Part shown: one piece after another, positions 758 to 36,037 of the stretch
How positions within the stretch are numbered: the stretch's first letter is position 1
How the letters are laid out: each line of letters opens with the position of its first letter
From: Chrysomallon squamiferum
Lineage: Eukaryota > Mollusca > Gastropoda > Neomphalida > Peltospiridae
Length of the DNA stretch: 64,000 nt
Assembly: GCA_012295275.1 (NCBI GenBank)
Contig: CM022672.1
Location: 28,749,972 to 28,813,971 of the forward strand
Direction: 5' to 3'
Position numbers and translations under genes: made by a program
The notes under the pieces: generated by a model
Database searches by the model: none
What the model saw: the letters and a program-made list of their open reading frames with translations, nothing else
Told to the model about the DNA's origin: nothing

Positions 758-1416
758 ATCTCAGTTTTAACTGGACATAATGGATAAACAGTATTCTGTG
801 AAATTCTTTACTTCATTTGTTGAAGCAATGCAAAAACTGTGCCGTGAATATTTAGACTTTGAGCAGGGTGTTGAATTGAGTGGTTACCTGGCTGTAGAAA
901 TAGACAATTTCAAAAAGGAAAGATATGTGCTTAGTGAACTTGTTCAAAGTACTGGAAATGTTATTAGTGAGAGTTATTGCACAAAAGCTTTCAAAACATT
1001 GAGAAAAGAAATACCACCCAAAATTAGTAACATGCACGGAAGTGAGAACATTGCTCCAAGAGACCATATGACAAGAACAGGAAGATCACATTCTGAAGAA
1101 GTTACAATAGTTTTAAGAGACAGTCCAGAAACAGTCTCACATCATGCTAATTATCAGCTTCATACAACCCCTTTCAAATCATCAAATCAGAAGCATTCCT
1201 TTAATCAGAATCCACATGTTCAAACATCTAGTCATCACAGAGACAGTTCATATGGGTTGTCACCCTCAAACAAGCAACAACTACCTTTTGAAATCCAGCC
1301 AAGGTGTTCAGAAAGTTTACAGGCTCTGTCTAATCTTTCACCAAAAGCTGTAATATCACAGAAACGCAGTATTATGGATACTGATGCTTCAAGTATGAGT
1401 TCTGCACCTAAAAGAG
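758..1416 (+). CDS. Constant coding exon 2: shared N-terminus of the alternative zinc finger protein
   Basis: The acceptor tttttcacag ends at 757, the start codon is at 780 and the donor GAG|gtatgc is at 1416/1417, leaving phase 1. It encodes residues 1-212 plus the first base of codon 213. Residues ~1-80 are compact and predicted mostly helical, with Cys20, Tyr and Phe patches and the segment 'SESYCTKAFKTLRKE'. The remainder is a Ser/His/Gln/Asn-rich, probably disordered linker. The N-terminal block is not a BTB domain that I can recognise; it may be a dimerisation or cofactor-binding domain, which is inference. The exon is followed by exons 3 and 4 and then by alternative zinc finger exons. 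If the donor is not used, translation stops three codons later at 1427, close to an AATAAA at 1436, which would give a finger-less short form. Confidence 0.8.
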
Positions 1417-2175
1417 GTATGCTGTAGATTAATTTAATAAAACTCTTTGTAAAGCCATTTTAATATTAGCAAACTTATGTTTGTTTCTGAGTTATTTTAA
1501 TCAGTTGTTGATAATGAATCTGTAATGTTTACACACTGGTGACAATACATGGTCCTGACATGTCAGTATGTCAATTTCCTTATGGGCAAAATTAACCAAC
1601 ATTTATGTGAAACTAGATGCAGATTATTAAATCATTTAAATATATCAAATATTATTGTAGGTTTTTTCAAATCCAAGAAAAAAATGAAAAAAAGAATTCA
1701 TGCTTGAAATTTTTATTATTTGTGTATTGTAGTTAGTCACTTAGTGCTATTATAGAACAGTTATTCTATCATTATCATTACTAATGAGCTGTGTTTTGCT
1801 TTAAATTATATGGTTTCCTTTCAAATGGTAATTTACTATTTATACTTGTCTGAAAATCATTTAAGCCAAGTGGCTTGAAACTAAACCCCCTCACACACAT
1901 AAACAATATGAATGATAATAAATTTAATAACATAATCATTTTAGACAGCATCATGTAAATGTAAAGCAGTGTCGCTCATGTGGAAATTAGCTTTAAGTCA
2001 AGATCAGCTTAGGGTGAGATTGACATCCACCAACAAATCAACCAGTTTTCATACATTTTAAAGTATTCCTTAGCTAAAAGTAGTTGCCATTTTAATTCAG
2101 GCATAAACATTTTAATTATGTCTTTTTTCAAAACGTTCTTTTATATTTATTGTATAATGTATGATTAAAGCTTTT
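1417..2175 (+). other. Intron 2, 5' part
   Basis: AT-rich intron sequence after the exon 2 donor. It contains the in-frame stop TAG (1425-1427) and an AATAAA (1436-1441) that could serve premature polyadenylation. No coding feature or named repeat was recognised in the rest. Confidence 0.5.
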
Positions 2176-5029
2176 GGGTCATTCCGTGTCAAATCACCCA
2201 ATGGTTTAAACCCGACCGTCTCAGATTTTTATGAAACTTGGTATACTTGTTGACTGGGATCCCACAACACCAAATCTGAAATTTTAGCTCAATCAGACCA
2301 GTGATGTGGGAGATACGGCCCACCGAATTTTGAGATTTTTGCCAAAAATGGGTGTGACCACCAACCTTAGAACCCTCATATCTTAGGAACTACTGGGCCA
2401 ATCTTCATAAAATTGGTATTGTTAGAAAGGCAAAATGACAAGGATACCAAATCTGCCATTTTCGTTTAGTTTGGAAAATATTGGAGTACCTTGACCTTTT
2501 GACCTTTGCTATGACCTTGAAATTGACTGTGTGGATCACGTGATCTTGAGATAACCTTTATTGAAATTTAATCTCCCACATGTTAACTAAAACATATAAA
2601 AGTTTCCTGGGTGTAATATTTTTTGTTTAGCCACAATATAGATTTAAAAAATGCACATACATGAAAATAACACCTTTTCAGCCATTAACATCTGATTAAC
2701 TAAAACCTGAATGATCAATTCTGGATGCTAGGAATCACCATCTCTCTTGATCATCAAGTAAGACATTGTAGGCCTACATGTATGCATAAAGTTCACATAT
2801 AAAAGTTTCCTGGGTATAATATTTTTTGTTTAGACATAATAGAGATTTAAACAAATGCATACCTGCATGGATGATTGATACAACGCATTACAATGTACAT
2901 TTTCTCTGATACTAAAAACACATCTTTGGAGTTAAAACCCACCTGACATGTCTGAAGGAATGCATGAAGGATATGAAAAGATGCCAAATGGCATGACATG
3001 TTCTACACAATCAGGCTCAAAGGGTTAACAGGAAGTGATGCTTCAGGCAGGTCAGGAACTCCTTTAGATTCCCTGGTGCAATCCCCATTGAGCACATGGC
3101 AATTAGAAGTTTAAGACAAAGAAGTTTCTGCATCTGCATTTCTTTGACAATCTGAAGCTTTTTAAGTTGGACACAATGTCAGATGTTGATATATAAACAA
3201 TATTTTTATTTCATAAAACCTATTAAGTAATTTTATCATGTCATGTGGGCCTTGCCATTGGTTTTGAACAAGGTTTCAGTCAACAACAGTACAACCCAGT
3301 CTGAAATTAGACGTCATCAAGTGATGTACTGCCTAATGTATTTGTACACCCAGTCTTCGGCACAGAGTATGAACAAGGTCTACTTCACCTTAATAAACTG
3401 TGATTTATACTTGAGAAGATTGACATAAATGCCCAAGACTTGTGGGCCTTTGGCAATAACACATGTACTCTGCTGCCATTTTATGACCTGCTTAACTTTA
3501 CTGAAAGGGTTTCAGGATTTGATTTAATATTTAGGAAAGCACTGACTTTGTTCTATTGAATTGAAGGTGCAGGCCAATACTGAAAATCCTTATTTCTTCC
3601 AGGGCTAACTGCAGTTTTAACTCTCCTGAAAATGTGTGTTATCAACACCATCATATCAAAAAGGAGTTGTTGCGAAGTGTATGGAAAACTGAGGAAGTCG
3701 AACTCCTCACTCTTTGAAGTGGGATCAAAACACAGGACATCAAGAGTATCATGAACAAGAACTTTTCGTCAAATTTTCAACATTGCAGAAAAACTGTTGT
3801 GATCCCCTTAATCGCCACCCTGAGCAAGCACACACTAGATCTTTAAGAATTGTTAGCATGGGCACTTACAAATGCTTAGTAAATCCTCCAAAGACACTAG
3901 TGCCAGGAGACAAGTTGTGCTGTGACTGTCTGATTACCCTTCAGAAATCAAAGGTCCTGCAGAGGATGGCTTTAGTATGGGTGGTATTACAATGGGAGAA
4001 TTTGACGATAACTTGCCAGACAAACCGCTGGTTGTTGTTTCCCCAGAAAAGGACTTTGATTTGAATTCTATTCTGTCGAGTTTAGGCGAAACTCCTGTCA
4101 AACTCCATTCACTAGCACATTCCAGTAAATGAATGAAAGGACAGAAAAAAAACTAGCATCAGCTACAGTAACATTAAAATGACATGTTAATGTCTGAATC
4201 CTACCCAGAGTGTGTGCAAATCTTGATTTTGTCACCCTTTACCATTGAAAGGACAATGAATTGAAGGAGGAAATAATCCAATTTTATGAAAGTGATGAGA
4301 ACAGTAGAAGGTGTCTGGGAATGAAGGATACAGTGATCATTTGAAACAAACATAGTGAGAAGGTTAAGCATCAGAAACACCTAGTTCTCTCAAATTTATG
4401 TGAACTTTATGCATACATGTAGGCCTACAATGTCTTACTCGATGATCAAGAAAGATGGTGATCCCTAGCATCCAGAATTGATCATTCAGGTTTTAGTTAA
4501 TCAGATGTTAATGGCTGAAAAGGTGTTATTTTCATGTATGTGCATTTTTTAAATCTATATTGTGGCTAAACAAAAAATATTACACCCAGGAAACTTTTAT
4601 ATGTTTTAGTTAACATGTGGGAGATCAAATTTCAATAAAGGTTATCTCAAGATCACGTGATCCACACGGTCAATTTCAAGGTCATAGCAAAGGTCAAAAG
4701 GTCAAGGTACTCCAATATTTTCCAAACTAAACAAAAATGGCAGATTTGGAGTTCTTGTCATTTTGCCTTTCTAACAATACCAATTTTATGAAGATTGGCC
4801 CAGTAGTTCCTGAGATATAAGGGTTCTAAGGTTGGTGGTCACACCCATTTTTGGCAAAAATCTCAAAATTTGGTGGGCCGTATCTCCCACACCACTGGTC
4901 TGATTGGGCTAACATTTCAGATTTGGTGCTGTGGGATCCCAGTCAACAAGTATACCAAGTTTTATAAAAATCTGAGATGGTCGGGTTTAAATTTCTTTTT
5001 TTGGGGGGTGATTTGACATGGAATGACCC
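2176..5029. mobile_element. DNA transposon with ~620-bp terminal inverted repeats (foldback-like)
   Basis: Two long arms, about 2176-2798 and 4398-5029, are near-perfect reverse complements of each other, differing by scattered substitutions and a short indel near the tip. The termini read gggtcattccgtgtcaaat on the left and the complementary ...gaatgaccc on the right. The flanks are T-rich (cttttGGGTC / GACCCttttc), compatible with a 4-bp TTTT target duplication. A ~70-base segment beginning 'acatataaaagtttcctggg' occurs at ~2588 and again at ~2797. The 1.6-kb centre holds only broken reading frames. The superfamily is not certain. It sits in intron 2 of the zinc finger gene. Confidence 0.85.
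3714..4064 (+). pseudogene. Broken open frame inside the foldback element (possible transposon protein remnant)
   Basis: This is an open frame of ~116 codons in the central, non-repeated part of the inverted-repeat element. It has a Cys-rich pattern with 'CCDPLNRH', then 'SLRIVS' and 'PGDKLCCDCL', which looks like a metal-binding or structured domain. Frames before and after are interrupted, and no DDE triad or other transposase signature is visible. It is probably the leftover of a protein once carried by the element; function unknown. Confidence 0.25.
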
Positions 5030-5555
5030 TTTTTCAAAATATTTGCTGTGTTCTTTTTCCAGCATATATTTGAAATTTGATTAAAAAGACTTCCATTTTT
5101 TAATTCATAATAGGCCTAATTGTTCATTTACAGATACTTTACTTTAATGTGGAAATTAAATATTTCAAAAGTTGATTAAAAAAAAATAATTTTTAAAAAC
5201 CCACATGATGCTAATATTAGGTAAATATTATATTACCCAAAGAATTGTCACAAACAGCATATATCAACAATAAACATAAATACTTTTTAATGTCATTACA
5301 TTTGTGGAATTAGCTGTCTGATCATTTTATAATTTAATATTAGGTACAGATTGATGAAAATGCTTAATTTGAAACAATTTGATCATGCTTTATATAATCT
5401 AGTAGAAATATTTGAAATATTATGTTTGATAAAAAATGCCAAAATGAAAAGCTAGAATTTCCTTAAGAAATAATTGGAACCAGAATTAAATTTGAAAACT
5501 ACACACTGAAAAATCTAATGTACATAATCATCAGTCAAATTTTTATATTTTACAG
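5030..5555 (+). other. Intron 2, 3' part
   Basis: AT-rich sequence between the right end of the foldback element and the exon 3 acceptor (atattttacag, ending at 5555). Nothing further was recognised. Confidence 0.5.
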
Positions 5556-5929
5556 ATAAAACGGAATATGTTGAATCTGGGATAGAATCACTACTTGCTG
5601 CAACTGAAAACACTCGGGAAAATGTGGAATCCTCATTCTCTGCTGCAGTTTCTGCAGCTACTTCAACAGAATCCACTGACACGGGCCATAGCTCTTTGCA
5701 ACAAGATAATAATGAAAGCCTTAATATGCCTATTGAAATTGATATTAAACAGGAGAAGGATGATGATTCACCATTCATGATAATAGAAAATCCCAATGAT
5801 CCAACAGTTAAAATGCTGGAAGCAGAAGGTGTATTTGGTAGGGATCATGACAGTTCTCAGACTTTGGCTTTAGATACATCCACAAGTTTTTCAGCTGATT
5901 CACAAAGTGCAGACAACTGCGAGTTTAAG
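5556..5929 (+). CDS. Constant coding exon 3: acidic Ser/Asp/Glu-rich linker
   Basis: The acceptor tatattttacag ends at 5555 and the donor AAG|gtattg is at 5929/5930. It enters in phase 1 (G from exon 2 + AT = Asp213) and leaves in phase 0 after Lys337. The segment is rich in Ser, Thr, Glu and Asp and is probably disordered. Residues 276-279 form 'IKQE', a consensus SUMO acceptor (psi-K-x-E, Lys277) followed by an acidic run and 'SP', the type known for transcription factors; modification itself is a prediction. If the donor is not used the frame stops at 5969-5971. A decayed copy of the 3' end of this exon lies at about 111-236. Confidence 0.75.
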
Positions 5930-6115
5930 GTATTGTTCAGTGATTTTTCTAATGATTTCTTTAAATCATAGAGTACCTGATTTTCAGAAATATTCTTGAT
6001 TGCTTGTTTGAATTTTTCAGGTGACAGTAATTCAGTTGTTTAATGATAGTTTATACTAAATATATGTACGTTAGCCATGTCTATAATAATATCTTTTTTC
6101 ATTTTGTTTTCATAG

Positions 6116-6168
6116 GATTCAAGGAATGTCAGTGATAGGGCAGGAATATCATGGGAATCTAGTAATCA
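6116..6168 (+). CDS. Constant coding exon 4: 53-nt phase-adaptor exon
   Basis: The acceptor ttttcatag ends at 6115 and a strong donor gtaagt starts at 6169. It enters in phase 0 and, being 53 nt, leaves in phase 2 with 'CA' of codon 355. It encodes 'DSRNVSDRAGISWESSN' plus the split codon. All 15 downstream terminal exons begin with A or G followed by an open frame, so codon 355 is always CAA or CAG (Gln). Skipping this exon would put every + strand finger exon out of frame, so it sets the phase for the array. It is too short to be found as an isolated reading frame; the match of phases on both sides is the evidence. Confidence 0.75.
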
Positions 6169-8075
6169 GTAAGTACCTTTTAACTCTTACATGTGATTGA
6201 CTTAGTTCCTCCAACATATTACATGGAATATTTTATTTTCCAAATGTTCATATTTGAAAAACATTCAGATTTTTCTTGCTCATTAACATTTTTTTGAATT
6301 TGATACTGATGAGATTCATTCTTGCTATATGACATTTTGCAAATGTATCCTGCAGCAGGAATTGTAATGATAAAAATACATTGTTTCTTTTTTCTTTTTT
6401 ATTACACTTATATTAAAGCCAGCATTTTGTCCTCACAGAAAGATTCCATGCAGTTATTAAATACTTGAAATGTTCTGATATTTTATATTCCAAATGGTGA
6501 GAACATCATTTTAGAGATAAAAGCTGTGTTTATACTTCTGACACATTTTCAGTCAACATTTGCGATTGCATAAATTTATACTTAATCAGCAGAAAGCACT
6601 TTTCATATTCTGTCATTATTTTAAGGTGCAGTTTTCCAAATACAGCTGCGCAGAACATCCTGTGTATATGATTGATATTGCAAGAAATGTTTTATGGTAA
6701 TAAAATAGTGAACTCATACTGCATTAATCCACAGTCTATCAACTGATGTACAGAGCCTTGCACCAAATGCCTTGAAAATTGGACAGCAGGTGTTAACATG
6801 TGGGACAGTGACCCAAAACAATAAATAATGTTTGTTTGCATTGGCATATTATTGTATGTGACTACATCAGAAGTATAAACCCAGCTTTATTTAAAAATTC
6901 ACTTTAAAAAGAATTTAATGCTGATGTTGGAGAAACTATGTCATTTCATCTAATATAATAAGACATTTTCAGTTGCGTATGATGCCAGAATAACTTTTTA
7001 ATACAAATCCAAAACATTTGCTAACTGCTAATTATCAGTAGCATTATTTGAGTATGCAATGTAACCATATAATGACAGTTAAAACTTATTTTACTGCTAT
7101 TTATCTATAATCCACATTTTTATTACTCAAGTTGCAAAATTCAACACTTATAATCAGAACTGTATTAATTTTTCATTTTCACTTTAGAAAAAAATTAGTT
7201 TGTCTGACATTGATTTATTATTCAGAGCTTTCATTTTTAAACTTTTCAAATTAGCATAATGTTTCTGTCAGATAAATATTTATGGAGCCAAAAATGGAAA
7301 GGTGATGGACATTACATTGGCTGCTGTTTATTGAGAATCTTATAAAATTAAGGAATAAAATCATTAAAAAACAAAACAAAAGTAAATAGTAATAAATAAT
7401 GTTATATATTTTATACTCGTTTTCTGATAACAATCAAAACTGTACAGAAAGGGCCTTTCTCTTGAGAACAATATATGTATATCTTTTATCTTTTTAAGCC
7501 AAGTGTCAGAACAAGTGGTTTTCAGTATACAACTTAATTAAATCATTATACATAAATTGATATTTAGAATTAAGATGCCTCTATGAGGTGTCCCAACTTT
7601 AATTTCCTTTGTATTTGTAACCATTATATCAGTCATGCTGTTTTTAAGTTTTTATATTTTGCAAACGTTTTAATTTTCTGAATGTAATGAAAAAAAAGAA
7701 TTCTGAGATAGCAATGGAGCAGTAATGTTAAAAGGAGATACAGGAGGGACTAATGTTAGTTACTTTATTTATTTATTTATTTATTTATTTATTATCATTC
7801 TTTATTTATTTGTTATCATTATTTATTTATTTTTTATTATTTGAATTTTTATTTTTTTGAAGGAAGAACAGCAGGGGAAACCCTATTTTTGCATCGGTAT
7901 ATATTTTTTGCTAAAATAGCACTAAAACTTTATTTGAACAGTTGTTTTTGTTCTTTTATCCTGTGTCAGCTACAAATCATATTGTTGGTGAAATTATTAA
8001 TATGATGATGGGATAGCACAGACTTCCAGCCTTCAGAAAGTATATAAAGTTTTTGGTTTCTTACTGTATTTACAG

Positions 8076-8127
8076 GATTTTGCCAGTACAGATGCACTTT
8101 TAACGATAATGCAGAAAGTGGACTTCA
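8076..8127 (+). other. Exon-like interval of doubtful function
   Basis: It is bounded by a good acceptor (tactgtatttacag) and a good donor (ca|gtaagc) and is 52 nt long, close to constant exon 4 (53 nt). Joined to exon 3 (phase 0) it would be open for 17 codons but would leave in phase 1, wrong for every P terminal exon. Joined after exon 4 it would reach a stop quickly. It has no sequence similarity to exon 4. It could be a poison cassette or chance. Confidence 0.2.
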
Positions 8128-10538
8128 GTAAGCTTGTTTTAATGCTAAAAAATTAAAGAGTAAAAGGGTTAAATCACAATTGAAACTGTTGTGGAAAGGC
8201 ATAATTTTGGTGGGGTTTAATTTTTTTCCTTTCAGACTTGTGTCCTATGGAACTTCTGTGGACTGTACCATTTTATTTATACCAGACAAGAACTTTTTGC
8301 TTGTGATAGAAGTCCTGATAAATTATGTACAAAAAGTAAAACTGAAGTATATACTATTATATCTAATTAAATGTGTTACTAATGAGGTGTGTGGGGGAAA
8401 AAAAAAAAAAAATTTGTAAGAGTCCAAATATTTTGCAAAGTTTTGTCAAACTGGAATTGTCTTATCAATACCTCATAACTTAAACATTTAGTTCCCATTA
8501 TCATTGGTATACATTATAATAGCTAATTTTAAATATGTTGTTTTACACGCTTCAGCAAACAAAATTTAAACACACTTACCAAATAGAAGTACAGAAAATT
8601 TCAGCCAACTATTTCTGATTGTTTTGGAAATATGGGTTCCTGATGGATACCAACAAATGTTACAAACAATTGTCGTTATGAAATGCATTTACTTACAGAC
8701 CTAATGGAATTACTCTGGATATATGCAGTTACAGTCACAGGTTTCTTGTTTCCAGTTGATATAAATGCTAAAAGCAAATCTGTTTCCAAGAGATCAAACC
8801 ATCAATTCTTTTGTTTTTCATTCCTTTGTAAACCAATTTTTAATTGGTTTATGCACTTCTGACAAGTATACGGATGGATAAATTTACCGAAACTAGTATG
8901 TATTTTATTTATTTATTTATGTTAACAGTTACCAACAAAATTCTTGAATGCTTTATGTTTTTTAAAAATATTTCCACTATGTAACATTCACCTCAACATT
9001 GGGAGCAAACAAACTGGTTACAAAGTTGTGAAAGCTCATTTACAACCCAGTTTGTCACGAGACTTTCCAGTTGTGGTTAATAAAGTATTAGGAACAACTT
9101 GATTGTCAAGTCAGCCAAAGAGCTCTGAATGTGATATCAGAAAACTTTGACCGACTTTGTCTGTATGTCAATTCACCAAAAAGTGCAAAATGCAGAAGTG
9201 TATGTTTACAGATTCAGTCATCAATCTTGTCTGACAAGTTTAATGTATGTTATGAAGGTATAAAACCGGTGTCAGCTTTAAAGCTAATTACACATTTTAT
9301 CGATGGCATATGTATTTCTGATATCAATATAGGCTTTATTTTTCACAATCCCACATCAGATTAGCAAGAAAAAATAATTCACAAAAACGTGATAATATAA
9401 CAGCATTTGTTATTTCTATTCTAATAATTAAATTTATAAATAAAAAAGAACTTAGTTACATGTTAATTCAGGATCATTGTTCCAAAATATAGATGAAAAA
9501 GTGTTGAATTGAGAGTGGGATGAGTAAAAAAAATAATAAAGCGAATCAGTATGTCTGCATATGATAGACTTTTCTTTCTTTTTTTTAACCTAAAAAGTGT
9601 ATTCCATTAAGTTAAGTTCTAAGAATCAAGTTACTATATGTACAAAACTAGGTTTTGTAATCTTTACAACTCATAGATTCTCTTGATTTGGAATATGTTC
9701 ATGTGACATAATTGTAAGAGTGCTCTGCTTACAGAAATACAGGTTTTGTTATGAATATATATTTGTTAATAATTTAAAGTAAAATATGGCACTGCAGAAA
9801 TATCACAGTAGGTACAAAGCATTTAAAGCTATCAAAATTGGATAATACCTTGTATGTGTGATAAAGTGATTAAAATCTGACAAGAATTAAAAACAAAATA
9901 ATAATAATAATAATAATAATAGTAATAATAATAATAAAATTAAAAAACAAAAAAATAATTAAAACACATCATGACCACATTTTATGATATGCCAGTAGAT
10001 TACTGTTATTTCCTTCAAATTATATTTATTAAAATTAAATTTATTAATAAATTATTTTTTTATTTCTTTCTATTCTACTTTTGTTGTGTACAGTTTTATG
10101 AAAAATGGACTTGATAAATAAATCACAAACAAAAATAACTAAAAAATAATGCTGCCAACTTTTCTGGTTTCATTGCTTTTAGTCACAAAGAAACTGGTGT
10201 AAAGATTATGAATAATCAAAGAAATGCAGTGTTTTACTGTTAAAATTAGAGTTGACAATAAGCACAGTTCTTATAAAGTTGTATTCAACTTAACTGAGAT
10301 GGACGTGATAACTGACTGTACAGAATTACACAAACCTAAGCAAAAAAGGGCAAGATAATTTTTTTTTTTTTTTTTTTTAAGAAACAGCATATCGATGCAT
10401 GTTTGTAGATGTTTAAATTCATGTTCATGAGAAAGGCTTCATTATGTTGTTTCCTTTCACCTTCACAAACTTTACTGTGCCCTAATGCATCTAAAGGGAG
10501 AAGTCATTTCTCTCTGTTTTTCTTGCCTAGCTTGAACC

Positions 10539-10542
<4 letters not shown>

Positions 10543-10591
<49 letters not shown>
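10543..10591. repeat. (TG)n microsatellite
   Basis: About 24 uninterrupted TG units, running into a short TGGG repeat on the right. The apparent Cys-Val open frames over it are repeat translations. Confidence 0.9.
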
Positions 10592-10600
<9 letters not shown>

Positions 10601-11299
10601 GGTGTGTTATAATGTTTGTTCAACATAAACATGCTTCTAGTTCAGTACTACAATTGCATGCTACTTCATGGCTATCATGTAAATGTCCTCTAGAACCTCA
10701 TTATTGTACTGATCATATTTCAAATTAAAAATAGAACTGTTTGTCATTCGTCATTCAGAATTTGAAGTCAATCCACATAATAGTTTTTAAGTTATGGCCA
10801 TTGATATGTTTTACTCTGTGGTGATTGTTTATGTCTGCACAAATCATTTTGAACCTACCTCATATTTGTAGATTTTATCATAAAACAGAATACAATGATC
10901 ATTGTCAAAAATATTACAGGTACACTCTAGATGGAGTAGTTTGAGACACTGATCATTAGAAACAGAATGATAGACTGCCAGAATTTTTTTTTTTTTCCCA
11001 TTTCTGGTTTTAAGTGTTTGTTTTTCAAATTTTCATGAATTGACATTTTTTTTAATATTGCATTTTTAGATTTGAACATTTGTGAGGTACTTCTTGTAGT
11101 TGTAGTAAAACAGATGTCATTTGTTAAGTAATCAAGATAATGTTTGTTAAATGTGTCGGTTAAGAGAGCAAATGTTTTTCAGGTATAGATCTTATTATTG
11201 TATTGTTCTTTACATTCTCCACACCTGATATACAAACTCACACATGTCTAAATGTTGAACAAAATATTTCACACAAGTTTTTGTCTGTTTCTCATAAAA

Positions 11300-12319: not shown

Positions 12320-12500
12320 AAAAATATAACTGACAGTTGAGAATATCAGACATTTATTTTATTGAATTGGTGAGAACTCTTTAGAAAAAGCTGCAGTGGG
12401 TATTCGTGTTTTTGCTTACTTATAACAGTGAAAACGAAGGTTGAATATTTGTGTAGTATTTAGAAAGTGCTTAACTGAAATTTAATTGTTTTGATTTCAG

Positions 12501-12753: not shown

Positions 12754-12789
<36 letters not shown>

Positions 12790-14541: not shown

Positions 14542-14782
14542 GACAGCAAGAAATGGAGAAATGATTAAAATGCCTAGAAAAAGTCCTATGTTTCTATTTC
14601 CAAGGACAAGACAGAGATGTCACATTTGTGGTCTTTGTAATAAGACATTTACATATGCCTATGAACTGAAACGTCACCATCGTGTAGTACATGAAAAACA
14701 ACCATTTCCATGTAATTTTTGTGACAAAACTTTCAGCAGTATTTCTAATGTGAACTTGCACATCAAGCGATACCATAAATAA
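14542..14782 (+). CDS. Terminal exon P3: two C2H2 fingers
   Basis: The acceptor tattttggtttcag ends at 14541; G completes Gln355, then 79 codons and TAA. Finger 1 'CGLCNKTF' has an extra 'CHI' just before it, so two overlapping C-x2-C pairs exist (CHIC and CGLC); spacing to the helix favours CGLC. It ends H-x4-H. Finger 2 'CNFCDKTF' ends H-x4-H. Helix residues Y,Y,E,R and S,S,N,L. The Met codons inside the exon are not needed for translation. Sister of P2. Confidence 0.85.
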
Positions 14783-17406: not shown

Positions 17407-17640
17407 GTCAGTTGGCCATAACTGGAATGTTAGAGAATTTGACAGATAAGTAGATTATAAAAAAAATTAATGTCTTCTGTTCCTAACAGTAGATTCGCAG
17501 AATATAATAATCTCAGCAGGCATCACAAAATAGTTCATTAAAAAAATAAAAAATAAATAAATAAAACTAAATTTTTCCATGTTAGTCCTGGCAGACTTTT
17601 TAACAGAAGAGTCATCTAGTGCAGCATTTAAACTATAAAA
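17407..17640 (+). pseudogene. Decayed terminal zinc finger exon
   Basis: A normal acceptor (gatttcag) ends at 17406, and its first frame runs only 14 codons to a stop. Further on, at ~17492-17541, the second half of a first finger survives: 'RFAEYNNLSRHHKIVH' with F, L, H and H-x4-H correctly spaced, followed directly by TAA. The Cys half is damaged by indels and stops. At ~17588-17640 bases resembling the second finger of P6-P10 remain (cctggcaga...tttaacagaagag...), also broken. The surviving helix keeps Arg at +6 like every live P exon. This is a dead member of the array. Confidence 0.65.
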
Positions 17641-24497: not shown

Positions 24498-24753
24498 ATC
24501 ACATGATAGGAGAAGTGAGAATAGCAATCCAGCTGAAAGCAGTTTTGGTTGGAGAAGATTTAAACACACTTGCAAAGTTTGTGGCAAACATTTTTCTACT
24601 AGAGGCAGTTTGCTCCGGCACGATCAGAGTATCCACAGAAATATTTTTTACTCTTGCCCAGGTTGTGGAAAACAGTTTAATGAGAGAAGCAACTTCATGA
24701 GACATGTCAAACAGTACTGTAAATCAGATGTATACTCACAGACTCCAAAATAG
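24498..24753 (+). CDS. Terminal exon P10: C2H2 + C2HC fingers
   Basis: The acceptor tcctttccttttcag ends at 24497; A completes Gln355, then 84 codons and TAG. Finger 1 'CKVCGKHF' ends H-x4-H; the usual Val before the last His is Ile. Finger 2 'CPGCGKQFNERSNFMRH' ends H-x4-C. Helix residues T,G,S,R and E,S,N,R. The longest ATG-initiated frame over this interval (from 24395) is in a different frame and has no Cys/His pattern; the splice-dependent frame described here is the real one. AATAAA at 24888. Confidence 0.8.
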
Positions 24754-25507
24754 AGTAAACAGCTCCATACTTATTTAAAATATAGCAATAAGATGATTAA
24801 TCAAAGTATCTTACCTGTAACATATCAAAATTTTAAATGGAATTTTTACTTGGCCAAAGAGATAGATGCAACAGTTCTGCAGTCTGCAATAAAAAATAAT
24901 GCCAAAACAGGAAAAAACATCCCACCAGTGTTCATCATATTCTGTTTGGTGATTAAAACACATTTCACATATCTGCATTTGTCATGATTCTGTAATTTGT
25001 GATGCATTTTACAATGTTTTCACAGCTAAGTTTATGTAATGTAGCATCATGTAGCTTGTCTAGGTTCAGCTGTGACATATTTATAGACATGTTCTTTCAA
25101 ATGCATGAGCTGTTATATAAAATATTTGTTTTCCTGTTTATAAAATTAAATATTACTTCTTTCAAAAATGTGTTGTTGTTTCTATGTGTAAGTCATATGC
25201 CAGATATATTTAATTAAAAATGAAAGCTATATTGTGTATAATCACTGACATATATAGTCACACTTGCATGAAGATATTACGGTCCTATATGCTTGAATTG
25301 TGGATGTAAAGAATATATATAAATATGGGCACCAATCTGTAATCTGTATGAATATGCAAATAATTGTCTACATGCATGCACATGCACACACAGACACAAA
25401 AATTACTGAACTGAAGAAATTGACACTGTTGATTTCTGGTTTTATTTCATCTTGTAATAGCCGACTAAGAGGGAGATAATTACACCTATGTATTGCTTTG
25501 TTTTCAG
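24754..25507 (+). other. Spacer P10-P11
   Basis: AT-rich, with a candidate AATAAA at 24888 for P10 and the P11 acceptor (ttgctttgttttcag). Short open frames at ~24793 and ~24999 show no domain. Confidence 0.5.
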
Positions 25508-25760
25508 GCCATCACGAACATCTTCAGCAAGGTATCTGTCAAAACTGACACATGCTGATGGTTCTACAGCTGTGTATAAATGTCATCTGTGTGAAAAACA
25601 GTACTCAGAGAAAAGAAATCTTTGGAGACACAATCGATTTGTTCATGAGAAGGTCAAGAAATATGTGTGCAGTTTGTGTGGCCAGAGATTCATGCAGAAA
25701 TGTCACTTAACTAGTCATCTCAATAGTAAACTGGTGCATGCTGGATTCCACAACTCATAG
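25508..25760 (+). CDS. Terminal exon P11: two C2H2 fingers
   Basis: The acceptor attgctttgttttcag ends at 25507; G completes Gln355, then 83 codons and TAG. Finger 1 'CHLCEKQY' has Tyr in place of the usual Phe and ends H-x4-H. Finger 2 'CSLCGQRF' has an unusually long last spacing, 'HLNSKLVH': His-x3 would fall on Lys, so the closing His is at x6 unless the ligand differs. Helix residues E,R,N,R and Q,C,H,S. Finger 2 may be weakened. Confidence 0.8.
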
Positions 25761-26485
25761 CTCCAGAATATTGGTGCTTACTAGATACCTCAGCATTGTC
25801 AACTTAGAAAAATACATGTTCTGCTAATACTGAAGTTATAGTAACACTAACAGAACTAATTTGTGCTGATTTGTCATTTTGTATATCTGTATTTTCAAAA
25901 TGTCTTGTGTTTTTCTTTTTTTCTTTTTTTACATCACCAGTAGCATTTGCTTTAGAAACTGATGTTATTACATTTTTAAATTTACATTTTAGTATAAAAG
26001 GGTAAAAAACTGAGTGTGTGTATATATATATATATTTTATTCTTTTTAATTATTATAACGAGAGATGAATGTTCAACCAATTATACATTATGTTCATAGT
26101 TGTGTTCCATATATTTTGTTTTTGTATCATCAAAAAATTAATTTAAAACATAAACATTTAACAAATGATTACAAAATTTACTAATCTGTGCTGTCAAAAA
26201 TAAACAGTGAAAGACCCAGTGATGTCAGCTCAGTATTGTTGTGATAGTGCAGTTACAAGTTTAAGATGATGTATGACAGTACATGCCTGAACTAACAATA
26301 CAGTTGTATTTGAATACAGATTTTTAATACAAATGTTAAACAGAGTTACATAACTGATTTAAAAATAAAAAAAGAATGTTGTTAAATCCATATATTCTGT
26401 GTATTTCTTAGAGTTTTTCTTCATTATTGGATATGACACTGTGCCTGTATTTGAGCAACAAAGGAATTTATCCTTTTACTTTCAG
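25761..26485 (+). other. Spacer P11-P12
   Basis: AT-rich with a short TG/TA run at ~26011-26034. It ends with the P12 acceptor (cttttactttcag). Nothing else recognised. Confidence 0.5.
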
Positions 26486-26702
26486 AGTGTCCACACGACT
26501 TGACAAAGAACTGGCTGGTACTAAACAGTATGTTTGTTCTCAGTGCAGCAAAGTGTTCACTCTTCATCACAATCTGCTACGACATCAGAGAAGTGTACAC
26601 AGACAGGGATTCAACTTCAGCTGTGCATTTTGTGGCAAACTGTTCTTTAGAAAGGACCATTTGAACTTGCATCTGAAAGGAAAACACAACATCACAAATT
26701 AA
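26486..26702 (+). CDS. Terminal exon P12: two C2H2 fingers
   Basis: The acceptor atccttttactttcag ends at 26485; A completes Gln355, then 71 codons and TAA. Finger 1 'CSQCSKVF' ends H-x4-H. Finger 2 'CAFCGKLFFRKDHLNLH' ends H-x4-H. Helix residues L,H,N,R and R,D,H,L. The 'RKDHL' second helix links it to P1. AATAAA at 26876. Confidence 0.85.
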
Positions 26703-29700
26703 CAGTGTTAATTGAATAGTTAACATTCAATGAGGGGATCAGATTAACCATTTCACAGCTAAGAACTGAACTGAGTTAATCAGATATTTTACTGCCTATG
26801 TTTTATAAACAATACAAGGATATAATGAGGATGGTATAAATAATGACTTTTAGGTCTGTATATTTCAAGGTAAACAATAAAGATGATTACAGAAAATACT
26901 AGTTACATTTAAACAAGGGCTTCCATATCATATTTGGACTTTTAGGTCAGATCAATTGACATCATTCTACAGGGTAGAACAGATCTATAATCTGCTCATT
27001 GCTGGGCAACAGGCCTTCACTGAATAACTGACATGAATTTGAAGCAAACAGTGATACAGATTTTATCTACTCTGAGTCATGTTCGTTATCAAAATAATTT
27101 ATTATTTCAAAGCTGTTCTGTTTGTCAGAAAAATCAGATATTTCAATAAAGTTTTCAGCATCTCCCATAATTATTGTAACCTTTGAAACTCATTCTTTCT
27201 TAAAGATTTTAAAGTTGGAAAATGTTTCCTTCTTTAAATTAATTGCAACTGCTTAAATTTAAATTCGATATTTAATTCTTATACACAGATAAATATATCA
27301 AAAACATTCAGTGACTGCAGAATATTAATATATTTTGTGTTGGAGATGGAAATTACACTGAAAAGGTGAAATATTTCCCACTGGTTGGTAGTTCATTTGT
27401 CATCAATGTTTCACCACTTTGTATTTATAAAGTAAGAATAAATCATTTTTAAGTATTAAGATCCAGGGGTATAAGTTAAACTCACAGCATGTTACTTCTG
27501 TGGACAATGGAAAAATTGTGAAAAAAAAGGAAATAATGAAAAAAAAAATAATCTCAGAATTTTCTAAATCATTTAAAAAGACTGAAAATAATAACTTGTT
27601 TAATTTTTTTTTAAAGAATAAAAAATCAAGTTTTGTTATGACTGACAATTTTTTTTTTTTTTTTTTTTTTAATTTTTATTAAATATATTTCTCAAATCTT
27701 TTATAACTTGTCTCTTGTTTAGATGCATTACTTTCTTTTTATTTATTGGATTCCAAATGGACAGTGATTTACAGTTCTTCATATAAATAATTAGAATAAA
27801 GAAAAAAACAAAAAGTTCCAAACAAACTTGCCACACTGTCATAACATATGGTTTTTTTTATTATTATTATCTTATTTTATATATGTTTTCTAATTCACAC
27901 ATAAAGATTACAATTAAAATAAAATTTTGTTTTACAAGGTAGGTTTTGGCAAGCAAAATATAATAATGTATATAATAAAAGTGATATATTGAGGCTTTCT
28001 CCATAAAATTAAGTTTTATTACCATCACTATTTTTCATTTTCAAATTTTTACTTAATAATTCATCATATAATTTTACAGAATAAGGGAAAGAACAAAACA
28101 AAGAACTTCATAGTTGTAAGATGGAGTATATATTTGGTTCCTTGGTTTTTAAAGTTAAGAAGCATTTTAAAATAGTTTACTTCTGAGAAATTGAAATGAC
28201 TGCCACTGAGGCTTATATCCAAAGACCCTTCAAACATCAAAAAATGTCCAATTTTTTCTCATCATCTTCAAGATATTTATTAAACAAGTACTTTAGGCCT
28301 TGGACTATAATACCTCACACAGGCTATGAGAATAATTTGAACTGCCAAAAGTTGATTAACCAACTTGAATAGAAAACTTTCAGTGTTGAAGCTCAGATGT
28401 CAAGTTTCTCTCCACATCACAGCCATCATCTCATCAGTGTGTTTGCATTGTATTAACACTTAATGCTTCTCATTTTAAAACTGGTGGAGAGTCTTTGTTC
28501 ATACCATTTTAAATACATCTGTAACTGCTTATAATTTGCTAGATTTCTAGTAAGCACTATGGTGATCACTAATGCTAAGAAGAATGCAGATAATATTTAC
28601 AAGAGTTTTTGAAATTTGAATTCATACCTTCCATTTGCTAATGAAGCAATCCTATGTGCTTCTTATGCGAAAAGACTTTAAGTAATGAATCATGAAACCT
28701 GCTAAATGAAAGACCACCTCAAAAAGATTCACTTTGCTAAGTAACGGAAAGATCTTAGTTTAATAAAAAAAAAAATGCTGAATGAAAAAAAAAGAAGGGA
28801 AATCTGGCAAATGTTAAAAGTAAATACACAGCTATCAGTTCATTGACAACTATGACTGAGAGGGTGTTGAGTATGGACTGGCTGTATCTCGGCTGGTTGG
28901 TTCATTGGGAAAAATTATGAGCTTTGGTACTGAGCTTAGCCACAACACAGATTTTCATTATGTACTTTAAAACAAAGCAACAGCTAAGCTAAAATGTTTT
29001 AAAATGTTATAAAGACTACATTGCTAATGATGAATAATATAGTTAATACTTTATTAAGTATTTTAAAAAAATAGAGCATATGAGGAAAGAACATTTAAAT
29101 CAATTCATTTATGCGAAAACAGGTATTACACTGGTCCATTATGTTTTGATTCCAACGAATGATAAATTATTGTAGCTGTGTTATCATCATGTTTCACTAA
29201 AGTTCAAATAGCATATAAAATAAATAGACAAATGAAAAAGAAAAAAAACCCACTTTGGAGAATTATGTTATAGGTCTTGCACTGACTAATGGTACCTGAA
29301 ACCTCTTGGAACTAAATGTGGCAATTTGCAAACAAGCTGCAAAACTTCATCATACTCAACTTCTTGTGTTTATCTTGATGATGACTATGAAGAATCAGAG
29401 AAAGTGTTTTCAGATTTTTTGAAAAATAGAATCACATACAACAACCTTTTTACCCTGCCTTTAAGAATGGATCAGCACTGCATAATATGACCCAAATGTT
29501 TGAAAATATATCTTGAAATGGTTGACAATCATAGCACTGCAATATGAAATGCTCCATTCTTTGTTAGCAAAGAAATGTAATCTTAGTTCATACTTTCCAC
29601 ATAATGTTGATACTGTGTGAGCTTAAATTACATAATTCACATCAATGGTGTCAAGTCTCTTATCGGTTATTCACACAAAAATTCATATTTTGGCTCCTAG

Positions 29701-30061
29701 GTGTCACTTTCATACCTGAATAATACATTCATAGCATCTAGGACAGACTGTTACGAGATAATTGTCCTGAGACAGCTTGCTGTCAGCTATTTTGAATTTA
29801 TGCAGATTAGTAGTGTGATATTCAGAGATAGAAAGTGTCATAAAAATTTCTAATGTAATTTTTTCTAGGTTACTTATAATCCTACTGGCCTCTCTCTCTC
29901 TCTCTCTCTTTCTCACACACACACACACAGACATTTTTTTGTTTGTTTTTGTTTTAATAAGGTTACAAGTTAGACTGATTAATAGTCTTACAGAATAAAA
30001 ATCATTTAAAACAATTACTGGAAGCAACAAAAAGCAACTTTACATTCAACAAACATTATAC

Positions 30062-30103
<42 letters not shown>

Positions 30104-30707
30104 CAGGCAATTTGTCCTTCCACTATGACTTACTTTTCTGTAACTGGAAATAAATGATTTTACTTTAGTTTTTGGGCGTACAGGTGTTCAGCTTGTATAT
30201 GTTAAGTTGAGTATATAACATTTTAATTTAAAATCACTTTCCATATTCATTCTTACCACAGTTGTTAGCAAATATGTAAATTAATCATTTTCAGATGTTT
30301 ATATTTTGTTGAGAAATAGTTGATTAAATAATTTGTAAACATAAACAGTATGTCTCTGGATGATTATTTTTATTTTCAGATTTTAAAAAAGGGTGCGTAG
30401 CATTCTTGTGATGAAATAAATTTCTTTACAAGAAAAAAGTAACAGTTTAAAAAAAGAAATCATTCCTTTGGTCTCTCTGTGTAAGTCATCATATTTGTTT
30501 TTTTCTCTCTCTCACTTTTTTATTATTTATTTAAATGCTAAAAACAAAGCAAGATCCATTACAACATTTTTTTTTTTTGAATCGATGATGCATTTACAGC
30601 AAACTTGATTGTGCCATTGGATGCATTTGCATATTCATTAATAATGTTTTGAAAATAGTCCAGTTGGAGTCTGTGTTGTTAATATGAGACAACTGTTCTG
30701 TTTTCAG
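26703..30707 (+). other. 4-kb spacer P12-P13
   Basis: The largest gap in the P array. It contains AATAAA at 26876 for P12, T and A runs around 27530-27670, a (CT)n/(CA)n stretch at ~29887-29930 and a (TG)n tract at ~30063-30102. I found no zinc finger codons on either strand and no transposon protein. The short open frames at 27403-27682 and 29710-30030 cover low-complexity DNA. Confidence 0.45.
30063..30102. repeat. (TG)n microsatellite
   Basis: About 20 uninterrupted TG units. Confidence 0.9.
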
Positions 30708-30936
30708 GAGACCTAATAGAAGAGCTGTGAAATCAGCATTAAGGAACATGTCACATTTAAGTTTGCACATTTGTCCTACATGTGGCAAATCATTCACACA
30801 GCGTGGCACAATGAAGCGCCACCATCAAAGTGTGCACCAGAAAGTGGCAAGATTCCAGTGTCCATTCTGCAACAGGAAGTTTTCCAGAAACGATCACCTT
30901 GGTCAGCACATGGTCTACTGCAAACGGAAACTTTGA
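30708..30936 (+). CDS. Terminal exon P13: C2H2 + C2HC fingers
   Basis: The acceptor aactgttctgttttcag ends at 30707; G completes Gln355, then 75 codons and TGA. An Arg-rich lead precedes finger 1 'CPTCGKSF', which ends H-x4-H. Finger 2 'CPFCNRKF' ends H-x3-C (C2HC). Helix residues Q,G,T,R and R,D,H,Q. AATAAA at 31009. An overlapping minus-strand frame and a second plus frame are shadows. Confidence 0.85.
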
Positions 30937-33812
30937 ATGTATCTGTTAACTAATACATTAAGTTCTTGGATAACTAACTAAAGTTTTCTATGTGTTCAGC
31001 CACAGAACAATAAACTGAATCCATATTTAGATAATTATATAACCAGTTTCAGACAATGACATAAGAAAAAAAATAACAGGAACAAAAAAAAATATGTTTT
31101 CAAAGATTTGTCATCATAATAAATATGTTTAAAGAAAAGTGTTTGTGTGTAGGTAATTATATTGCTATTAAAAAAAGACAAAAATAAAATTTAAATTAAA
31201 GAACAGTTGAAAAATTAACAGAAAACGATGCAGTGAAATACATGTAATACTGTACTTTTACTCTGGCTTAGAAGATGCTAATAAAAGTCAGCTTTAATTT
31301 GAAATATTCAAAAGTCATCAACATTCTGTTTTAAAGTGTAAAATACTGTATATATAAACACTCAGTAAAATATTTTCAAAAACACTGAATTAAAGAAATG
31401 TCATTGGAATTACAAAGTACCTTACATCAGTCAATAGGGGTATTTTCTCTGAATTATTAAAACTAGTATTTTAATATAGGTGTAATAGCATTGGTTATTA
31501 ATTAGGCTGGTGGCTTGAAGAAGTTGTAAATTTGCACAGGAATTTGTTAGAAATATATTTATCTGGTGGTGTTATACTATAATTATAAATAATTATAATT
31601 TTCTTTTTTTAATGTAATAAAATAGATTAATATGTTAATAACTGATTGTTGAAAGTTAAACATTAATATACTTGAGATTTGTTCCCATTGTTGCAAGGAA
31701 TATTATAAATGCATCTTTCCAGCAGAATAAGGAAAATATATATAAAATCTAGTGAATGCATGAACTAAGAGCAGATCACACACATGAAAATCACACATAT
31801 TATTAATGCTTAAATAAAATAAAACCATATTACCATTTAGAATCATTCTTTGAGTGCAGATTTTATGCTGAAAGGAAACTGATATAAATTTTATTACTTC
31901 AGATTTTCAGAGTCTGTCCATGTTGGAACATCACATGTATTAGCTGTGTAGACCAACATTATTCTTCAGAATCACAATGTACAGCATATACCAGCATAGG
32001 AATAGATTCTCATGTGAGATGTGTTCTTTCATTCCTAGAAGAAACAAAACAAAAGCAAAACCATTTTCATTCTATATTTTTATCATATATTCATAGTTGA
32101 CTTTGAGGATTCTTTTTTAATTATGTAGTAGGATTTTTATTATTATTATTACTGCTCGTGTGATAAAGTTACAAAAACATTTCAGTTGCTGTTCTGATTT
32201 CATACTGTTACAATGAAGGAGTTTTCAGTTCTTAATATGACATCTACTTGATGTCAGTGGTTTTGAAAAAAGTAATGGAAAAAGTAGTGTATTTCAATAC
32301 TGTTACCTATATTAGATTTTATACATATGATATTGTATTTTCCTACAGTTGGTTTGTTGTACAATGCTCTCTGAATTCTGTTATCGCTTGCTATTCCAGT
32401 TTACATAATCTAATTGCAGTTATTCTGATTGGTGTAACACTGTAATATCTAAGTAAAACACTGCAGTGTTTTCAAATCACACCCACCCAACAAAAAGCCC
32501 AATTGATGTCAAATATTCCTTCTCCTCACTGACTACAAGTGTGTTCCAGTGTTTGTGAGGGCCTGCTTCTGATCATCCTGCACATCATACATACAAGAAA
32601 TTTTTGTCAAACTTTGAACTGATTTACTGATAATTTTAGGTGTTTCATGTATGCACTTTGGCATTTTGAGGTAAGACTGAGGCAGTTAATTTTAACAATT
32701 GATACAGCAGTCAGTTTTGTCCTGTCAGTACTAACCCACACAAGTCTGGTGTGTTGTCAGCATTAGTCAGGTCAACACAGTTATCACAGTATTTGAAACC
32801 AGGATTTTCCTTTCAGTGTCCCACCAAATACTTTTTATCCCTAGTGAAGCATACACAGAATTTCATAAGATTCTTTAATGGGATATTTCAATCAGTCTTC
32901 TGCCATTAGCTTAAGGCTCTGATAATACTTACCAGAAAAGAAATGAGTTCCTGATGATGCAGTGAGAACACACCATTTTGGGCACAAAGCTGAGAATGAA
33001 GAAAATCCATTCTTCTTTTCAGGATAGGATTCGTTTCAAAAAGAATAAATCTCCTTGAGATTCAGTAATATGAACCACTTGTGATGTTTTCACTATTCTC
33101 ATTATGAATATTCTCAGAATCCTTCATTTCAGAACTACTTTCATTAAAACTAATAATGTCATTTTTTTCTGATAAAACCTATCTGGTTCTTATCACATTA
33201 TCCTAATATACCCTTCTGCTTTTTTTTTTTGATACAGTGTTATTTTTCACCAAAAGGTTTGTGGCACCAAATTTTTCATAATCCCATCTTTCTTCTAATA
33301 TCACAACACAGGTAGTGTTAAACAAGATATTAAAACTATGATACATTTTCCTACCACATTATAGTGTATTTTGTACATTAATGCACATTAATTAGCGAGG
33401 TTAATATTTTAGATTTTGACTAGTTATAACAAGAACACATTATACACAACTGAAGATGGGAAGGTTATACCCACTGAATGATTTTATGTGGAATATCCCT
33501 ATAGTTTGTGCAAATAATGTCATAAACTTCCTGTATAAGTACACTGTGAAACAAGGTGATGTGTACTTTAGATATATATTACTTTAGTATATAAATAGCC
33601 TGCAGATACTGCTAATAGTTTCGTGCTATTAAATTGATATATAAATAATCTTTTGATATTAAACTAATATATACATATATTGTGTACAATTTTCCATTTA
33701 CAATCATATATAAACAAATATATAATAGTTTCTATACACTGACTTGATAGTTAGCATTCAGATATTGATGTGTAAACAGTTCTGTGATTTTAAGTCCTAT
33801 TTTGTATTTCAG
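30937..33812 (+). other. Spacer P13-P14
   Basis: AT-rich. AATAAA at 31009 for P13. The interval ~32480-33180 is less AT-rich and could be an old transposon insertion, but six-frame reading gave no family I would name. Nothing else recognised. Confidence 0.4.
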
Positions 33813-34041
33813 AATGTGCTGTGCTATCTCTAAACAACACGATTCAACAACTTGCATTTACAAATGTCCAGAATGTCAGCGTCCATTTGGTTTCAACCAT
33901 TCTCTTTTGCGACACATTCGCTGTGTGCATCAGCGAATAAAAAACTTTCCCTGTAACAAGTGTGGAAAACGATTTACTCGAAGTGATGTTCTCAACAAAC
34001 ACATGGGCACTTGTACTCAGACATTTCATAGCTCTAACTGA
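33813..34041 (+). CDS. Terminal exon P14: C2H2 + C2HC fingers
   Basis: The acceptor tattttgtatttcag ends at 33812; A completes Gln355, then 75 codons and TGA. Finger 1 'CPECQRPF' ends H-x4-H ('RHIRCVH'). Finger 2 'CNKCGKRFTRSDVLNKH' ends H-x3-C. Helix residues F,H,S,R and R,D,V,K. A minus-strand open frame across the exon is a shadow. Confidence 0.85.
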
Positions 34042-35721
34042 TTTCTAGCTGAGGAAATGATAATAATTACAATCATCTAGCAGAATGTGAAAAATAGTGA
34101 TAAAAAAAAAGAGTTTAAAATGTGACTGTTTTAGGAAAGATTAAATACACCAGAAGAAAGCATGTCCATATACTATTGAAAGCAGTGTCTGGTTAAAGTA
34201 TTAGACCATTACAAAGATGTTAAACAGAGTTGTTACATTCAGACACTGTGGTAAAGTGTGAAAATCAAAATAAGAGATTTATTTGTTATCTATCTAGATT
34301 CAAAAACATTCAAAACAGAAATATTTAATTCTAAAATATTTCATATTACTTCAATTCTGTTCCTTGCTTTACTTTGTTTTTGTAAATGATGAAGATAACT
34401 GTTCGTGTGGCAGAACTGTCTTTTGTATGAGCAGAACACCTCTGAAGATATCTTACCTGGGAAAATAATAATCAAGACAATGTATTAATAACTAAACACA
34501 CATACACACATATACACACACATACACATATAAACACATACACACATGCACATATACACACACATACACACAAACACACATTTGACCTGATGTACGTATA
34601 ATCCTAGCCTGTTGTTACTTTTGGAGTAGCTGTTTTCTAGGCAATAAATTGTAGCCCTTTGATGTGATGTTTTTTCCATTTAGGAATGTGTGTAAGAAAA
34701 AACAATTTACCAAATACCTGACAGCTATGTTTTACATTTCTGATATTAAACAATCCAATATTAATAATAAACAATCCAAGACATTAATAATTGTTTAGAG
34801 TTCATTGTAATCTTTAGAAAATATTAATTGTTATTATTGTGAAAAATATGTCTTTACTAAATCCTCTTTTTATTATTTATGTGTTCATTATAGAAATATA
34901 CAACATATTACTATTGTGACAAGCCAGTATTGGTACAGGGTGGTGAATAATGTGGTGCATAGCATGAAGGTCAAAGTTGGAAAAAGATTTTGTCCCAAAT
35001 TTTCTTTGAAATGACATAGTATTTATCATTACAATAGAAAAAATCGGTAATGAATTTAGCAACCTTTTTTTCATCCATGGCCTTCTAGGCAAAGACACAG
35101 AATAGGGCCTCAACATACACAAGCACAAAAAGTTACTGACAGCAATCCACAACATATATAATAAACTGCATGGGACCCTAGTTGAACAGACAATTCAGTA
35201 AATGCTGAATCATAAAATGGTGTGATTAATATATAATGATACCAAATATTTGCTAGTTTTTTCATCAACAGATATATATATATATATAGTTGTGATGTTA
35301 AATTTGTTGATTTTATCTTGGAGGATTTTTCTGCTGTCTATAAAATTCAGGATATGTTATTCTGTTAGATGTGTTTATTTATTTATTATATCTTTTTCAT
35401 TTTATTTATTTATTTATTTTTATTATTTTTTTTTTTTTTTTTTTTTTCAATTTTAGCTTATAATTGAAAATGTATAATTCACAAATATTTATCTAATACT
35501 GACAAATTCCACTCTTATGATAAATGAATTTCTGTTCTGTGCTATTTTTTAATTGATATTATGGTATAAGTATTTATAATCATCATTATATCATTTCAAG
35601 ATAATCCAGACAAAATGCCACAGCTAAATAATATATTATTAGCAGCATGTATAAGGGACTTATGTGTTTTGTTTATTTCAATAATAATTAAAGTATTATT
35701 TTCATTCTTTTTTCTTTTCAG
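34042..35721 (+). other. Spacer P14-P15
   Basis: AT-rich with an imperfect (CA)n/(CACATA)n stretch at ~34493-34580, a TA run at ~35273-35288 and (ATTT)n/T-run DNA at ~35375-35450. A minus-strand open frame at 34877-35155 has no domain I can name. It ends with the P15 acceptor (ctttttcttttcag). Confidence 0.45.
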
Positions 35722-36037
35722 GACACTTCAAAAAAGATTAAGGCAAATAAATAAAATTAATAAGGGAAGTAAGAATTTTCATCCATTTTCTTGTTTTGTT
35801 TGTTCCAAATTGTTCACCTACCGCTCAGCTTTAGTACGTCATCAGCGCACCCTGCATCAACAACAGAAGAAAAGATTTCTGTGCACTTTCTGTGAGGCAT
35901 CATTCAGTCGTCAAGACAACCTCACTCAGCATGCTAAAATACACAGACCATGCAGTCACTGTGGCAAAATATCACTCAGCAGTGAAGAGTGGAAAAAACA
36001 TTTAAAGGAGCATTTTCAATTACAAAAACAAATTTAA
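35722..36037 (+). CDS. Terminal exon P15: three C2H2 fingers (last exon of the + array)
   Basis: The acceptor ttcttttttcttttcag ends at 35721; G completes Gln355, then 104 codons and TAA, the longest of the array. Finger 1 'CFVCSKLF' ends H-x4-H. Finger 2 'CTFCEASF' ends H-x3-H. A third finger follows with only two residues between: 'CSHCGKISLSSEEWKKH' ending H-x3-H, with Ser where Phe is usual. Helix residues for fingers 1-2 are Y,S,A,R and R,D,N,Q. AATAAA (36036-36041) overlaps the stop codon. P15 is the only + strand exon with three fingers, and the one nearest the - strand array, whose exons all have three. Confidence 0.85.

Follow-up and report, generated by a model that had tools for sequence, protein, structure and literature searches.

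The closest described systems are two fly genes in which common 5′ exons are joined to alternative 3′ exons. In lola one of many 3′ exons is added to the common part, and 17 of the 20 isoforms contain C2H2 zinc fingers (PMC11426971, from the text available); mod(mdg4) makes >30 isoforms upon the same plan (PMC12692577, likewise). Here we describe a similar layout in the gastropod Chrysomallon squamiferum, within a stretch of 64,000 nucleotides on contig CM022672.1 (the window; C8:28749972-28813971, with C8 coordinates used for sites beyond it). The window very probably contains one complete terminal-exon-switching transcription-factor gene (locus C) and the 3′ part of a second (locus D), both lola-like and based upon an N-terminal domain that is not BTB. 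The exon anatomy, the concordance of splice phases and the orthologous loci with many database isoforms are observed directly. The original prediction proposed one constant region serving an array of interchangeable finger exons as a lola-like isoform generator. The architecture holds, and the generator is supported by the two tails of the orthologue in Gigantopelta aegis and by paralogous loci with up to 19 tails; the gene does not stand alone, being a member of a cluster.

Starting at the 5′ end of the plus strand, constant exon 1 of locus C (758-1416) follows an acceptor-like site (757/758). Its coding sequence begins at the ATG at 780, includes the whole of the conserved N-terminal domain (residues 1-76), and runs to a donor after 1416 in phase 1. 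Constant exon 2 (5556-5929, plus strand) ends in phase 0. Constant exon 3 (6116-6168, plus strand) comprises just 53 nucleotides and ends CA/GTAAGT (the slash marking the end of the exon) in phase 2, forming the common donor. The coding segments 780-1416, 5556-5929 and 6116-6168 total 1,064 nucleotides, equal to 354 codons followed by CA. As predicted, this last exon is a phase-matched donor for the array, since it ends in CA and all 15 downstream units enter one base ahead of their frame.

All 15 of the exon-like units that had been predicted are present on the plus strand between 12501 and 36037, each with C2H2 fingers and a stop codon. Two fingers are found in P1 (12501-12753), P2 (13315-13549), P3 (14542-14782), P4 (15643-15847), P5 (16570-16813), P6 (18864-19098), P7 (20928-21183), P8 (22629-22863), P9 (22930-23197), P10 (24498-24753), P11 (25508-25760), P12 (26486-26702), P13 (30708-30936) and P14 (33813-34041), and three in P15 (35722-36037). 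The second finger of P11 has a longer His spacing, and the search pattern scores one finger there. Three of the 21 units in the window were scanned with the Pfam zf-C2H2 profile, and P1, P15 and M2 (a minus-strand unit of locus D) gave 40.4, 45.1 and 44.9 bits respectively against a cut-off of 25.2. Acceptors were scored from their pyrimidines, the base before the AG and the distance to the previous AG, blind to phase. The best-scoring acceptor ends in TTTCAG and is located one base before the finger frame in all 15 units. The junction codon, predicted always to be Gln, is Gln in 14 units. In P3 either of two in-phase acceptors could serve, at 14542 (G, giving Gln) and 14527 (T, giving His), of which the second scores better, and the codon depends upon which is used. 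Four units (P1, P2, P6 and P10) had been singled out as having no start codon before the fingers; these do lack an in-frame ATG, and so do P7 and P9, making six. The other 9 of the 15 have some in-frame ATG within the open frame.

Common 5′ exons with in-phase 3′ exons that each encode a DNA-binding domain and a stop are thus found for 15/15 P units, and equally for 6/6 units of locus D (M1-M6, below). We propose that the spliceosome would join the donor at 6168 to one of the 15 alternative last exons, each of which would supply its own finger pair (once a triple) and its own stop. Splicing would be mainly in cis, with alternative 3′ ends. The N-terminal domain would mediate protein-protein association, probably with itself, and the fingers may direct each isoform to a different DNA target. 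Because each array lies downstream of its own constant exons on the same strand, cis-splicing suffices, and the joining of one donor to alternative last exons in cis would be the simplest account.

Three further observations concern the vicinity of locus C. Intron 1 contains a 595-nucleotide inverted repeat (2205-2799 and 4397-4991), 97% complementary and enclosing 1,597 nucleotides, with the appearance of a foldback or DNA transposon insertion. Upstream of the gene, at 114-244 of the plus strand, is a relic, the trace of a decayed duplicate, in which 142 bases align at 76% identity with the last part of constant exon 2 and the sequence past its donor. Within the array, a decayed finger unit with internal stop codons (17446-17610, plus strand) matches two units of locus B in tblastn (E 7e-4 and 0.002).

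Constant exon 1 was searched against the genome (404,604,130 bases in 22 contigs) at E≤0.001. At least 24 matches were found, all of them on C8, the weakest with 29% identity. Six of the copies (A to F), distributed over the two strands, lie in C8:28640001-28900000, and C8:28980001-29020000 contains a seventh (G); these two stretches, the first of 260 kb, were analysed. All seven copies are within 360 kb, and each is followed on its own strand by finger frames. We read six of them as clear lola-like genes and the seventh, A, as less clear.

The phases of these loci were compared, each unit being paired with the donor of the constant exon that precedes it on its strand. The best acceptor has the phase of its own constant's donor in 62 of the 65 units with two or more fingers over loci B to F (B 19/19, C 14/14, D 6/6, E 8/8 and F 15/18). 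When single-finger frames are added the counts become 21/23 for B, 15/15 for C (the addition being P11, with its unusual spacing) and 10/10 for E. The binomial probability of 62/65 under a chance of 1/3 is 3e-26, a value that is too small because duplicates inherit their phase. As a control, 295 finger-free open frames of 70-130 codons from the same 260 kb are spread over the three phases as 79/103/113. An acceptor score of at least 19 is reached by 160/295 of these control frames, compared with 64/65 multi-finger units. The donors fall into two kinds. B and C share the third constant exon ending CA/GTAAGT (the phase of exon 3 in locus B was counted by eye), while the constants of D, E and F stop at exon 2, with a phase-0 end.

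Further support comes from G. aegis, which is also a peltospirid snail and the source of the nearest named proteins; the comparison set was 130 database proteins. The two genera are reported to have split ~66.3 million years ago (PMC7736800, from the text available). The best G. aegis matches of the constant exons 1 are P0001 for C (73%), P0004 for B (74%), the P0062 set for D (63%), the P0013 set for E (60%) and P0048 for F (72%), with P0006 (76%) and P0059 (76%) for the more distant copies at 0.126 and 7.59 Mb. Each of these seven has a separate best match. The exon of G is 72% identical to P0026. Over its whole constant region locus C is 66% identical to its orthologue, LOC121382587, which has two visible database tails following a common 374 residues that end ...SSNQ, after which the sequences diverge. 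Only two tails are visible because isoforms are collapsed in the database. Other G. aegis constants have many more. Grouping proteins by identical first 150 residues, and using cluster representatives only so that the counts are minima, at least 19 share exactly 362 residues and then continue into 19 different tails. Other sets comprise at least 12 tails on a prefix of 338 residues, 9 on 384, 9 on 314, 8 on 317 and 7 on 369, together with smaller sets. Nor are the tails of one kind. One constant bears BEN, Psq-HTH and C2H2 tails (P0083, P0084 and P0087), and another bears a DUF3504 tail and a seven-finger tail (P0049 and P0061).

The tails themselves follow the constants. The best-matching tail comes from the orthologue of the unit's own constant in 20/21 multi-finger units (D 6/6, E 7/8 and G 7/7), with identities of 50-83% for D and 57-86% for seven of the eight E tails. 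A tree of units (117 rows) is poorly resolved, with 17 of 114 inner branches starred; in it M2-M5 and 5/8 E units pair with tails of their own orthologue, M1, M6 and E5 are placed in small open groups that include tails of this kind, and E3 and E4 have no clear place.

Several observations weigh against this account. Between the stop of P8 and the acceptor of P9 there are 66 nucleotides, leaving scant room for a separate 3′ end for P8. Poly(A) signals are found within 600 nucleotides of 57/65 units, compared with 90% of 2,000 random places; being no better than random, they were rejected as proof of terminal exons. Not all phases agree. Both of the out-of-phase frames in B (2/23) are single-finger frames, 3/18 units of F prefer phase 2, G has phase 0 in 4/7 units, and the four frames of A have phases 0, 2, 0 and 1. 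Exon 1 of A has no close match in G. aegis, its best being an 'ena' protein (52%). Among the matches listed, neither visible G. aegis tail of locus C is close to any P unit (≤51%), and conservation of the P tails, unlike that of the M tails, is therefore not shown by the tails visible. One E unit (28827411) is slightly closer to the tail of another locus. Finally, the G. aegis isoforms are models from a database, of a type that is built upon RNA alignments.

The first poly(A)-like signal downstream of P8 is 347 nucleotides away, just beyond the stop of P9.

The array had been described as ending with the P units at 36037. These do extend to that point, and six units on the minus strand between 45117 and 60806 had been overlooked. 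Their fingers differ in type from those of the P units, and all six (6/6) have entry phase 0. M1 (45117-45470) has two fingers by pattern and a third that lacks the last ligand, and is 82% identical over 82 residues to the G. aegis tail P0068. The remaining units have three fingers each by the same pattern: M2 (52210-52611; 83% over 104 residues to P0076), M3 (54625-55122; 77% over 102 to P0070), M4 (56582-56935; 72% over 111 to P0075), M5 (57707-58042; 50% over 113 to P0073) and M6 (60468-60806; 68% over 91 to P0066). Constant exon 1 of locus D is located at 65255-65875 in window coordinates, on the minus strand just past the right edge, and the second exon of this locus ends ...TTTACAG/GTACAG in phase 0. 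Because they have their own constant copy with a phase-0 donor, M1-M6 are best read as the tails of a convergent paralogue. In mod(mdg4) antisense exons are joined by trans-splicing, and the phase-0 end of exon 2 of locus C would fit the entry of the M units; a role as antisense exons of the locus C gene was nevertheless rejected, given the constant exons of their own past the edge of the window and the phase-0 donor there.

Two neighbouring loci have features of their own. In locus B, at C8:28693448-28698782, the units B1/B3 and B2/B4 form near-identical pairs: a block of two units was recently duplicated in tandem. In locus G, at C8:29006168-29008094, Psq-HTH last exons lie ahead of the C2H2 units behind one constant region, and share up to 69% identity with the G. 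aegis P0026 tail.

The constant domain was predicted to be helical and outside the BTB family. The second part is borne out by searches of Pfam and the PDB, which gave no BTB match. With 13 domain sequences at E≤10 Pfam returned no BTB, and four other families with one member sequence each (best 0.033); constant exons 1 and 2 gave no Pfam match at E≤1. A PDB sequence search with constant exon 1 found nothing, and a domain profile found two Lon protease chains only (E 2.2-2.3). Foldseek on a weak structure model gave nothing at E≤0.001, but the models have mean predicted local distance difference test (pLDDT) scores of 52.9 and 60.8 and the Foldseek list is evidence neither way. A hidden BTB domain is thus unsupported by Pfam, PDB or Foldseek. 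Because Pfam returns no BTB and no solved structure matches better than E 2.2, the reading as a non-BTB, lola-like generator is supported. As to the fold, the low-confidence model (mean pLDDT 60.8) has one helix and three strands, bearing out the predicted helical character only in part.

An alignment of 45 sequences (A3) places the window's domain in a gastropod family, with invariant residues F9, F10, C21, G35, Y36, D42, E47, R48, Y49, S52, E53, G59, S63, E64 and C67. Three protein searches (104, 103 and 118 rows) reach only proteins of comparable length that have short exact words in common with the query, and among the matches listed the domain's relatives are found only in G. aegis, Haliotis species, one Batillaria protein and the 'ena' proteins. 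For structural studies it represents a new candidate for an association domain.

In Haliotis and Batillaria the same N-terminal domain fronts DUF3504 proteins, with identities to the window's domain in A3 of 56-74% (Haliotis) and 44% (Batillaria). DUF3504 is reported to derive from Crypton tyrosine recombinases (PMC3212892, from the text available). Unlike the window's gene, these relatives mostly have a DUF3504 tail, a few have no Pfam domain, and none of the matches listed has C2H2 fingers. Within the Chrysomallon genome, a single open frame of 848 residues at C8:10160668-10162404 contains the N-terminal domain and DUF3504 in the same frame, and is possibly an intronless copy. At a second C8 site the two are ~3 kb apart (30855580 with 30859285). 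DUF3504 also occurs as a broken stretch at C8:15735918 and as a single match on C5. Neither C8:28640001-28920000 nor 28980001-29020000 has a match to the DUF3504 tails of P0049, P0047 or P0092. The constants of locus F and its G. aegis orthologue end HVKVFQ or HVKLFQ, which is the point at which the DUF3504-bearing tail of P0049 starts. We infer an ancestral gene in which this domain was followed by a DUF3504 last exon; finger exons were acquired as further choices of last exon, and duplication along one chromosome followed. The DUF3504 relatives with the same front domain provide an outgroup, and because of them, and of the P0049 and P0061 tails on one constant, the start of such an array is open to study.

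Other explanations can be weighed against these data. The arrays might serve genome defence in the manner of KRAB zinc-finger clusters, with tails that turn over during an arms race against transposons in place of having fixed developmental roles. This bears on purpose and is compatible with terminal-exon switching, and we regard it as rather unlikely while giving it some weight. The predicted contact residues form distinct sets in all 72 multi-finger units of B to G; the near-identical neighbours in B and the decayed unit show birth and death, and intron 1 contains the transposon-like inverted repeat. Yet the D tails, and seven of the eight E tails, have been kept at the identities given above over the ~66.3 million years since the split, and therefore suggest stable roles, and in most tails the fingers number just two or three.

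Trans-splicing is a little less probable still, and we consider it unlikely. Finger exons would have promoters of their own, and their transcripts would be joined to those of the constants, perhaps across loci of one phase class (B/C or D/E/F). mod(mdg4) makes its >30 isoforms in this way (PMC12692577, from the text available), and the split-codon junction is identical in B and C. In 20/21 best matches, nonetheless, the G. aegis counterparts of D, E and G tails are attached to the orthologue of the unit's own constant, a figure softened by the fact that gene-model software would hardly propose trans-splicing. A wider scheme, which we hold to be quite improbable, extends this to a chromosome-wide factory of ~24 domain copies, many with multi-fold tail arrays, in two splice-phase classes with trans-splicing between loci and mixed multimers; across this genome or G. 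aegis its DNA-binding folds would be C2H2, Psq-HTH, BEN and DUF3504. A reading of the units as independent small zinc-finger genes or pseudogenes, brought to lie beside a constant-domain gene by tandem duplication, is highly improbable: clustered C2H2 genes are common and nine P units have an in-frame ATG, but six do not, the phases fit the donors at five loci on both strands, and orthologous loci have isoform models that fuse constant and tails.

Returning to the proposed cis-spliced terminal exons behind a common constant region, the layout can be set against known systems. Among the matches listed, which were titles and abstract openings with few subscription papers covered, no account of the snail array was found; one of the snail genome papers, in the text available, describes an expansion of BTBD6, a different family by name. 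In KRAB zinc-finger clusters, too, C2H2 units are grouped together, diversify and have an N-terminal domain in common, but there whole genes with long finger arrays are duplicated, whereas here last exons are multiplied behind each constant. The vertebrate KIAA1958 produces two isoforms whose DUF3504 domains differ, each being encoded by a separate exon (PMC3212892, from the text available); these are two tails of one kind, in contrast to an array of many kinds. mod(mdg4) differs in its BTB constant domain, in that all its mRNAs are trans-spliced, and in having mostly FLYWCH tails (PMC11426971, from the text available). lola is a single locus, while the snail has several next to one another; trans-splicing is established for lola and would be an unlikely alternative here. 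The constant domain of lola is a TTK-type BTB, a type called Arthropoda-specific in the title of PMC11426971, while that of the window matches no known family significantly. The locus appears to work like lola and mod(mdg4) and, by the tests made, lies outside the BTB family. If this is true, a front part with interchangeable DNA-binding last exons would be a repeatable route to transcription-factor diversity without duplication of whole genes, known in flies from BTB genes and found in these gastropods upon a domain with no detectable relation to BTB.

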